Positions 483-40,124 of a stretch of DNA of 47,775 nucleotides are shown here, in pieces. How positions within the stretch are numbered: the first letter of the stretch is position 1; each line of letters begins with the position of its first letter. The DNA is from Clostridia bacterium (lineage in GTDB: Bacteria > Bacillota > Clostridia > RUG12999), in assembly GCA_017467445.1 (NCBI GenBank), contig JAFTSG010000007.1, forward strand, positions 1 through 47,775. Direction: 5' to 3'. Under the pieces are notes generated by a model. It searched no databases, was not told the origin of the DNA, and was given only the letters and a program-made list of their open reading frames with translations. A program made the position numbers and the translations under genes.

Positions 483-690
483 GCTACACTCTAAATTAAA
501 ATGGAGTTAGTCTATTTTCTTATATTTCCTTACATAAAAATACATTAGAGAAGTATGCTAATGGTAAAAGCGTACTATCTGGTAAAACTTCTCTATGTAA
601 GATGTAAGTGATATAAGAGTGTAGCAACCTTATACCAGATTTGTGCGTTTTTCGGTGCATAGTTCTGGAATAGGGGCTATGCACTTTTTT
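483..690 (+). ncRNA. Structured leader RNA with pseudoknot and terminator (riboswitch candidate)
   Basis: A long 5' leader with nested and mutually exclusive pairings. P1 is GCTACACTCT (483-492) with AGAGTGTAGC (616-625), 10/10. P2 is CTTACATA (529-536) plus TAGAGAAGT (546-554) with the block at 587-601. P3 is AGTATGC (552-558) with GCGTACT (570-576). ATCTGGTA (577-584), inside P1, is complementary to TACCAGAT (633-640), outside it: a pseudoknot. The same 3' strand (631-639) can instead pair with 664-672, which overlaps the 5' side of terminator 655-684 (GTGCATAG/CTATGCAC, then T6). That is the layout of a transcription-terminating switch. I do not recognise a named class. Confidence 0.6.
655..690 (+). 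terminator. Leader terminator upstream of the protease
   Basis: GTGCATAG (655-662) and CTATGCAC (677-684) form a perfect 8-bp stem followed by TTTTTT. It lies between the promoter and the Shine-Dalgarno at 699-704, so it must be bypassed for the protease gene to be expressed. Confidence 0.8.
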
Positions 691-2850: not shown

Positions 2851-2886
2851 AAAAAAGCGTACTGAAAACTCAGTGCGCTTTTTTCA
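2851..2886 (+). terminator. Terminator-like hairpin after the tRNA 3'-end copy
   Basis: AAAAAAGCGTACTG and CAGTGCGCTTTTTT form a stem with one G-U/mismatch and a T-run. It sits immediately after the duplicated tRNA end, where the terminator of the original tRNA operon would be expected if 362-2849 were an insertion. Confidence 0.7.
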
Positions 2887-2887
2887 A

Positions 2888-3060
2888 TGAAATACGCCTT
2901 ACGGCGCATGAAATAGCTGTGCTATGGAATACACTTCGTGTATGAAATATTGCTTCGCAATATGAAAAGGCGTATTTTATTTCACAGAAAGCGTAAGCTT
3001 TCTATTTCACAATTTACGAAGTAAATTATTTCATATTGAGCAAAGCGAGATATTTCATTT
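2888..3060. repeat. Array of short palindromes separated by TGAAAT / ATTTCA
   Basis: Successive hairpins such as ACGCC-TTA-CGGCG, ATAGC-TGT-GCTAT, ATACAC-TTC-GTGTAT, ATATTGC-TTC-GCAATAT, AGAAAGC-GTAA-GCTTTCT and AATTTAC-GAA-GTAAATT are separated by the 6-mer TGAAAT. The separator flips to ATTTCA in the second half, and the outer parts are mirror images (TGAAATACGCCTT against AAGGCGTATT...ATTTCA). It lies directly upstream of the four-helix-bundle gene. Confidence 0.8.
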
Positions 3061-3093: not shown

Positions 3094-3111
3094 GTAAGCA
3101 GGGTGTTACAT

Positions 3112-3459
3112 ATGAAGGAAAATAAGCTTGTAGAAATATCTATGGATTTTGCAGTTAAAATTATTAAAATGTGTGAAACAATAAGAGGACATTATTCCCT
3201 TGCTAATCAGCTTGAACGTAGCGGAACGTCAATAGGAGCTAACATTCACGAAGCAAACTATGCACATGGTAAGAATGATTTTGTTGCAAAATTACAAATT
3301 GCCTTGAAAGAATGTTATGAAACAGAATATTGGATTGAACTTTTTGTAAAATCAGAAATTTTAGATAGAGAAAATGCAAAAAAATTGTATAATCAGTGTG
3401 GTACAATACGAAAAATTCTTATTTCATCAATAAATACCGCAAAGAAAAACAATAATTAA
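3112..3459 (+). CDS. Four-helix-bundle protein (S23 / rRNA intervening-sequence protein family)
   Basis: About 115 aa, all-helical, with family hallmarks: the RSGTSIGANIHEA segment, then KNDFVAKLQIALKECYETEYWIEL. It is a full-length member of the TIGR02436-type family, whose members are found in 23S rRNA intervening sequences, as free-standing genes and as relatives of Avd proteins of diversity-generating retroelements. Biochemical function is largely unknown; a pentameric nucleic-acid-binding role is known for Avd. I chose the ATG at 3112 because AGGGTG lies 6-7 nt upstream; an in-frame GTG at 3103 overlaps that site. No rRNA surrounds it. It sits between a palindrome array and repeat copies (2725-2772, 3471-3517), which suggests a small mobile unit. 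Confidence 0.85.
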   Translation: MKENKLVEISMDFAVKIIKMCETIRGHYSLANQLERSGTSIGANIHEANYAHGKNDFVAKLQIALKECYETEYWIELFVKSEILDRENAKKLYNQCGTIRKILISSINTAKKNNN

Positions 3460-39347: not shown

Positions 39348-39926
39348 CTACTTTCCTTTAATAATAGGTGAAAGCCGTTTATAAACAAGCATTGTAATAA
39401 CGGAAAGAAGAATTCCGCGTACAAAGGAAAACGGCAGGTTAAACACTAAAAGCCCTTTTATAAGGGTGTTTGCCCATGGACAAAGCATAGTGTACATTCC
39501 GATAACCGCATCCTTTGACATAATGCTGAAATAAAACGGATATGTGATATAAAGGTTTACAAAAAAACCTACAATGCACATTGCAATTGTGCCTGCAAAT
39601 GCACCGATAACAGCACCTTTTTTTGTTTTGTGGTATTTGTAAATAATACCTGCCACAAATACAAAGGATGCGCCGTTCAAGAAGTTCGCCAGCTCGCCGA
39701 CCCCGCCTGTTGTGGTCTCAATAAGGCAAATGAGATTTTTGACAAGGCAGATCAAAACACCCCACACGGGGCCAAGCGAGAAGGCACCTATAAGAGCAGG
39801 TAAGTCACCAAAATCAAGCGTAAGGTAAGGTGGTAAGAAGGGTAAAGGCAGTTTCAAAAACATAAGTACGGTTGATATGGCGGCAAACACTGCGCAAACT
39901 GTCAGTTTTCTTAAATTTTTATTCAT
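39348..39926 (-). CDS. ECF riboflavin transporter substrate-binding subunit (RibU-like)
   Basis: 192 aa with six hydrophobic segments. It begins MNKNLRKLTVCAVFAAISTVLMFL and contains LTLDFGDLPALIGAFSLGPVWGVLI, typical of ECF S components of the RibU type. Substrate assignment to riboflavin/flavin is supported by the FMN riboswitch just upstream. It would work with a shared EcfT-EcfA module encoded elsewhere. AAGGAGACCAATGTT precedes the ATG; the longer frame starts inside the terminator. Confidence 0.92.
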   Translation of the reverse strand: MNKNLRKLTVCAVFAAISTVLMFLKLPLPFLPPYLTLDFGDLPALIGAFSLGPVWGVLICLVKNLICLIETTTGGVGELANFLNGASFVFVAGIIYKYHKTKKGAVIGAFAGTIAMCIVGFFVNLYITYPFYFSIMSKDAVIGMYTMLCPWANTLIKGLLVFNLPFSFVRGILLSVITMLVYKRLSPIIKGK

Positions 39927-39941
39927 AACATTGGTCTCCTT

Positions 39942-39974
39942 AAAAAATAATGCCCTGTAAAAATTACAGGGCAT
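39942..39974 (-). terminator. Riboswitch expression-platform terminator
   Basis: Minus strand: ATGCCCTGTAA-TTTT-TACAGGGCAT then TTATTTTTT, placed between the FMN aptamer and the Shine-Dalgarno. FMN binding should allow it to form and stop transcription. Confidence 0.88.
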
Positions 39975-40002
39975 ATATGTGTAGCTTTATTAAAAAAGCG
40001 TA

Positions 40003-40112
40003 AACTTTTTCCATCCGGACTGTACCGTCGGCTTTGGAATTTCACCAAATCAACCGCAAGGAGAGCGGCTCGTGGGCTGTACCACCGGTAGGGAATTTCA
40101 CCCTGCCCCAAA
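40003..40112 (-). promoter_or_regulatory. FMN riboswitch (RFN element)
   Basis: On the minus strand the conserved RFN blocks appear in order: GGGGCAGGGTGAAATTCCC, ACCGGTGGTA, AGCCCACGAGCCG, GATTTGGTGAAATTCCAA, AGCCGACGGTACAGTCCGGA and TGGAAAAAG. It controls the RibU-like transporter gene through the downstream terminator. Confidence 0.97.
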
Positions 40113-40124
40113 ATTTACTTTTTC

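Follow-up and report, generated by a model that had tools for sequence, protein, structure and literature searches.

A pseudoknotted leader RNA ahead of a surface protease gene is probably one copy of a widespread class of terminating OFF riboswitches in Clostridia

Does the long leader in front of a surface protease gene in a Clostridia bacterium act as a genetic switch, and does it belong to a class of RNA that has already been described? The leader lies at the 5' end of the analyzed stretch of DNA (the window, 47,775 nucleotides), where it is preceded by the 3' part of a 5S rRNA gene, three tRNA genes, a hairpin terminator-like stretch and a promoter. The protein encoded directly behind it begins with a signal-like stretch. 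The original prediction described this leader as a riboswitch candidate outside the known classes. The elements of the leader and the gene that it precedes are as follows.

448 to 476, + strand: putative promoter, assigned by consensus match, with TTGAAA at 448-453, a 17-nt spacer and an extended -10 element TGA-TAAAAT (hexamer at 471-476)
482 to 492, + strand: 5' strand of the closing stem P1, at the transcript 5' end if the start site is placed by consensus
498 to 518, + strand: small hairpin within P1 (498-505/511-518), from the predicted fold
521 to 551, + strand: 5' strand of the P2 arm (521-526, 529-535, 541-545 and 547-551), from the fold and the swapped-partner test
552 to 576, + strand: P3 hairpin (552-559/569-576), with the loop AATGGTAAA that includes a near-invariant A-run
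577 to 584, + strand: 5' strand of the pseudoknot, ATCTGGTA, supported by covariation
590 to 615, + strand: 3' strand of the P2 arm, from the fold and the swapped-partner test
616 to 626, + strand: 3' strand of P1, read from the sequence and supported by the swapped-partner test
624 to 629, + strand: conserved junction GCAACC closing P1 (consensus GTGTnGCAACnT)
633 to 640, + strand: 3' strand of the pseudoknot and core of the antiterminator 5' strand (the shared switch strand), TACCAGAT, which pairs with 577-584 or with the terminator 5' arm
643 to 653, + strand: conserved (G)TGCGTTTTTC, in which TGCG tops the antiterminator stem and the U-run would be its loop or a pause-like tract
654 to 690, + strand: intrinsic terminator and U-run (hairpin 654-666/673-685, then T6), with TTCTGG in the 5' arm
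699 to 705, + strand: Shine-Dalgarno sequence AAGGAGG, read from the sequence, preceding the ATG at 713
713 to 2638, + strand: regulated gene for a secreted protein of 641 amino acids carrying two SLH domains plus a protease domain of the trypsin-like HtrA/DegP type

The promoter directly upstream and the Shine-Dalgarno sequence directly downstream were both found where they had been placed. The promoter matches 10 of the 12 consensus positions, with a TG preceding the -10 hexamer; its extended -10 element is TGATAAAAT, and P1 begins 6 nt after it. Among 91 homologs, 70 carry a -10 element with at least five of six matches no more than 22 nt upstream of P1, most commonly at a distance of 5 nt. 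The predicted 10-bp closing stem is present with perfect pairing (483-492, GCTACACTCT, with 616-625, AGAGTGTAGC) and reaches 11 bp when 482/626 is included. The internal arm proposed at 529-554/587-601 also exists, although its bounds were slightly loose: the inner pairs of P2 are 529-535/602-608, 541-545/595-599 and 547-551/590-594. The small hairpin expected at 552-558/570-576 was recovered as P3 (552-559/569-576), and the terminator expected at 655-684 as the hairpin 654-666/673-685 followed by T6. The 8-bp pseudoknot between ATCTGGTA (577-584) and TACCAGAT (633-640) is likewise perfectly paired, and it covaries. Overall, the leader, with P1, P2 and P3, measures about 200 nt and folds at -73.5 kcal/mol, compared with -43.1 +/- 4.3 kcal/mol for dinucleotide shuffles (z -7.0; none of 200 shuffles reached the same value).

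A nucleotide search across 148 relatives located the leader in distant genomes, where it precedes unrelated genes. Fifteen of these homologs were aligned and served to build a covariance model (R1) that holds only P3 and the terminator. As P1, P2 and the pseudoknot are absent from this model, they could be tested free of model bias. In total, 138 homologs were handled, 91 to 93 in a first set and 46 later ones that had previously been unused. The pairing of each sequence's own strands was compared with that of strands exchanged between sequences (the swapped-partner test), which gave z values of -22.8 for P1 and -34.5 for P2 in 91 homologs (-17.8 and -23.5, respectively, in the 46 new ones). 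For the pseudoknot and the antiterminator, the values were -13.3 and -16.3 in the first set of 91 to 93 homologs and -3.5 and -9.6 in the 46 new ones; the weaker pseudoknot signal in the new set is partly explained by its lower diversity.

Column-wise analysis of the 91 homologs agreed with these results. All seven aligned pairs of the pseudoknot, which lie outside the model, show two-sided changes, and P3, which is part of the model, is paired in 93% of cells, with two-sided changes in six of its seven pairs. All helices taken together have two-sided changes in 231 cells, versus 65 +/- 9 in shuffles. Pairing decreased from 90% to 20 to 60% when the partners were slid, and to 21 to 28% when they were slid by one column. 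The column test was weaker for the antiterminator alone (18 two-sided cells versus 8.9). The check that the original prediction had called for, a covariance analysis of homologous leaders, thus revealed compensatory changes in the stems as well as in the pseudoknot. Compensatory change across 138 homologs excludes chance as the origin of the fold.

The family consensus can be written as P1 GYnACA.../...TGTnGC, P3 GTACGCTA-nnGnaAAAA-GCGTAC, then CTCTG..., GCAACC, CAGAG, TGCGTTTTT and the terminator. Conserved positions that are unpaired or special comprise the A-run of the P3 loop, the GCAAC after P1 and TGCGTTTTT, which follows the pseudoknot (644-652 in the window) and is near-invariant in the 91 homologs. 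Despite lying in a mere loop, that of the antiterminator, the tract of five U residues hardly varies; a pause site and a part of the binding core are candidate roles. Two further contacts were considered. For a base triple or pairing that would join this U-run to the A-run in the P3 loop, the lengths of the two runs correlate only weakly (r 0.35). A second pseudoknot, joining GGU in the P3 loop to ACC after P1, looked plausible in a few members but failed the swapped-partner test (z values of 1.4 and 1.0) and was rejected.

The original prediction further proposed that 631-639 could alternatively pair with 664-672. This pairing is possible with one mismatch and is part of a longer antiterminator, in which 628-647 pairs with 656-676. 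The 5' side of the antiterminator is made up of 633-640 and the following TTGTGCG, and its 3' side is the terminator 5' arm, in which TTCTGG mimics the 5' strand of the pseudoknot. As the pseudoknot 3' strand is common to the antiterminator, pseudoknot formation should free the terminator, an OFF logic that is conserved. The predicted mutual exclusion of antiterminator and terminator is therefore supported by the shared, covarying strand, while the direction of the switch presumes that a ligand stabilizes the pseudoknot. Under that assumption, the gene would be read when the signal is absent, with 628-647 paired to 656-676 and the terminator blocked. Binding of the signal to the P1-P2-P3 core would stabilize the pseudoknot 577-584/633-640, and the locked pseudoknot would withdraw the switch strand so that the terminator (654-685) forms and transcription ends before the gene. 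The signal would most likely be a small molecule indicative of the general physiological state.

Folding energies are compatible with such an exchange in the window. In the segment downstream of P1, the antiterminator is preferred (-22.0 kcal/mol, versus -18.6 kcal/mol for the terminator), and the terminator forms once the switch strand is sequestered; the pseudoknot duplex alone contributes -9.4 kcal/mol. When the switch strand was removed, the terminator 3' arm was paired in 76 of 77 representatives. With the switch strand free, the antiterminated fold was the minimum in just 10 of the 77 under a simple energy model, and the resting state of most members is thus an inference. Such a model, which includes neither cofactors nor co-transcriptional order, does not settle the default state.

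The leader combines two of the three features by which riboswitches are recognized, namely, a covarying structured aptamer and alternative, mutually exclusive folds that both covary; the third would be a small molecule or ion whose direct binding changes gene expression. The original prediction held that it resembles no known class, and indeed, no family in Rfam 15 matched the leader or the homologous loci checked at the gathering threshold; in sub-threshold Rfam searches, no family was matched consistently at the RNA. The T-box covariance model likewise had no match at the leader or homologous loci. Neither of the two outcomes named beforehand as speaking against a new switch, an Rfam match or stems without covariation, appeared. 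No passage describing this RNA was found in the main text of two RNA surveys, covering 26 and 50 genomes (PMC8632094, PMC11109978).

Two other RNAs of known families were observed in the window. A Gut-1 RNA (RF01706) match at 2885-2973 (+ strand; 52.7 bits, gathering score 50) sits between the protease gene and a gene for a 23S rRNA intervening-sequence protein (3103-3459), and an FMN riboswitch (39999-40119, - strand, 118 bits) lies upstream of the minus-strand open reading frame (ORF) 39348-39974.

In fluoride and ZTP riboswitches, a strand of the aptamer pseudoknot is shared with a terminator-controlled expression platform. The leader RNA resembles them in reusing an aptamer helix strand to choose between antiterminator and terminator, but its sequence, its size of about 200 nt and its conserved core match none of them in Rfam.

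The R1 model had matches at an E value of 0.001 or lower in 78 of the 391 genomes of the class, distributed over 47 of 222 genera and 18 family labels; the class is taken to be Clostridia from named records that contain relatives of the protease. With fuller scoring, most chosen carriers had 5 to 27 copies, with 27, 24, 23, 17 and 17 in the richest genomes; at the low end, one scored genome (G018) had two copies, another (G155) had one and the four genomes chosen as controls had none. In the genome of the window itself, BLASTN of the leader, before a broader model (R2) was used, had returned only the leader and chance-level matches. R2 found two further copies there, one upstream of a gene for a Cu-amine-oxidase-N surface protein and one upstream of a gene for a small protein of unknown kind.

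Multiplicity of this kind, together with the location of several copies near contig ends, could also point to a mobile repeat, a chance fold or a coding sequence, none with a regulatory role. However, the compensatory changes extend to all helices, there is no conserved reading frame, and the RNA is placed strictly before a Shine-Dalgarno sequence and start codon. Copies within the richest genome share just 36 to 84% identity (mean, 49%), which argues against a recent repeat. We therefore consider such an origin extremely improbable. It is instead probable that the leader belongs to a widespread cis-regulatory RNA class of Clostridia, conserved in structure, and that this class acts as a transcription-terminating OFF riboswitch.

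Which genes the RNA precedes bears on what it might sense. It is placed between the promoter and the Shine-Dalgarno sequence of single genes: an ORF of at least 60 amino acids preceded by a Shine-Dalgarno sequence begins within 120 nt downstream (median, 26 nt) in 94 of 134 copies, compared with 5 of 109 in a mirrored control. By a crude test, 63 of these 94 proteins have a signal-peptide- or membrane-like N terminus. Pfam domains among 81 downstream proteins included SLH (15 proteins), BspA-type LRR_5 (10), Cu_amine_oxidN1 (6) and YpsA-type SLOG (5), with a few each of SPFH, zinc-ribbon and AbrB-like domains; CHAP domains are also present behind copies of the RNA. The products of the downstream genes are thus mainly surface or secreted proteins, alongside SLOG and AbrB-like proteins. 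The surface protease, which had been regarded as an unusual target, is therefore a typical one. The protease family itself is not the key, as the leader was not detectable at any of 47 other loci with relatives of the protease. A leader-peptide attenuator was rejected because upstream ORFs with a strong Shine-Dalgarno sequence occur in only 2 of 138 leaders.

Several recurrent arrangements were observed among the targets. One recurrent target, a small relative of YpsA-type SLOG proteins whose N terminus bears a 'CCFIGHRK'-like motif, is encoded behind the RNA at nine loci (L090, L092, L093, L108, L116, L121, L123, L138 and L144). SLOG domains are known or suspected binders of nucleotide signals, and these targets are a possible hint at the signal. 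Other small proteins of about 80 amino acids are encoded directly behind the RNA at L176, L113, L174 and L111; those of L176 and L113 have no Pfam match. At seven loci, tandem pairs of complete leaders, each with its own terminator, precede one gene (L123:1113-1522, L138:3819-4385, L129:1084-1508, L133:1031-1446, L203:382-749, L208:3705-4041 and L225:194-584), and SLOG-like and AbrB-like genes are among those behind them. In being multi-copy and in having tandem complete leaders, the RNA resembles signaling riboswitches.

The nearest published candidate is the SLH motif, an orphan riboswitch candidate upstream of SLH-domain genes (Stav et al. 2019; PMC6429828), with which we compared the leader by published description. 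The motif is reported with 80 examples in Synergistaceae and Negativicutes, and also in Clostridia, lies before SLH genes in about 60% of cases and is proposed to be a riboswitch for a cell-wall signal or second messenger. The leader RNA, likewise an orphan upstream of genes for S-layer-homology proteins in Clostridia, might thus be a divergent branch of a class that has already been named. The SLH domains of the window gene, the occurrence of both in Clostridia and the proposed cell-wall-signal riboswitch fit this identity, which would affect naming only and is compatible with the OFF-riboswitch mechanism. However, SLH domains are found in 15 of 81 downstream proteins, as opposed to the roughly 60% given for the motif, and SLH genes are outnumbered by the LRR, Cu-amine-oxidase-N, SLOG, AbrB-like and other genes taken together; our set of the RNA has 138 examples. 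Furthermore, no example of the leader RNA came from outside its own class, in contrast to a motif described from Synergistaceae and Negativicutes. When R1 and R2 were run with strict filters on 299 phylum-level genomes (Synergistaceae not among them), the genome of the window alone was matched. As 75 of these genomes have Omp85, the sample takes in diderm lineages, and the lack of matches there argues against the identity with the SLH motif but does not settle it. We regard this identity as possible but unlikely.

A different reading of the same terminator logic, with which it is equally compatible, is that the conserved core is bound by a protein or by an RNA acting in trans, and not by a small molecule, and that this partner stabilizes either the pseudoknot or the antiterminator. 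A global regulator protein would fit with the presence of many copies ahead of unrelated genes. The core, however, is a three-helix pseudoknotted fold with conserved GnaAAAA, GCAAC and TGCGTTTTT, unlike a short repeated protein-binding hairpin, and no regulator gene is consistently linked to the RNA. An attenuator of this kind therefore seems possible but unlikely, and a small-molecule riboswitch is our preferred reading.

The regulon contains no metabolic gene pointing to a ligand and, by analogy, looks like that of a signaling riboswitch. The c-di-GMP-I and -II riboswitches are present in multiple copies per genome, before surface-protein genes, and use a terminator as their platform. The leader RNA resembles them in its many copies before surface-protein genes and in its transcription terminator as expression platform, but it differs in having no Rfam match, another layout and carriers without GGDEF domains. 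A c-di-GMP riboswitch of new architecture would account for the many-copy surface-protein regulon, which resembles known c-di-GMP regulons, and c-di-GMP has been suggested as a ligand by the authors of the SLH motif (PMC6429828). However, a GGDEF domain is present in 52 of 78 carrier genomes and in 239 of 313 noncarriers, so that carriers are not enriched in it. A GGDEF match at an E value of 1e-10 is absent in 26 of the 78 carriers, and 16 of 18 such carriers rechecked at an E value of 0.01 still had no match. Five near-complete carriers without GGDEF (G025, G164, G204, G253 and G274) have 5 to 27 copies of the RNA. As these carriers have no detectable GGDEF domain, c-di-GMP is unlikely to be the general ligand, and we consider a c-di-GMP riboswitch of new architecture very unlikely. 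All 39 carriers tested have a c-di-AMP synthase (DAC domain), but this says nothing about c-di-AMP as the ligand, as nearly all of these bacteria have the enzyme. c-di-AMP and others are the remaining candidates.

Tentatively, and with clearly less than even confidence, we propose that the leader represents a new riboswitch class for an unrecognized general signal, either a global metabolite or a second messenger different from c-di-GMP. Through as many as about 27 switches in a genome, this class would set the surface proteome in a broad, largely uncultured group of Clostridia. The existence of carriers that lack GGDEF proteins points to a non-c-di-GMP signal behind a c-di-GMP-like regulon. 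If the RNA is a riboswitch, it would be a common, multi-copy class that is absent from Rfam and that probably has surface genes under its control in roughly one-fifth of the genomes sampled from this class of bacteria (78 of 391). The consensus, the switch strand and informative mutants are already defined for testing, and with each genome providing many natural reporters, the class would offer a testable route to its signal.
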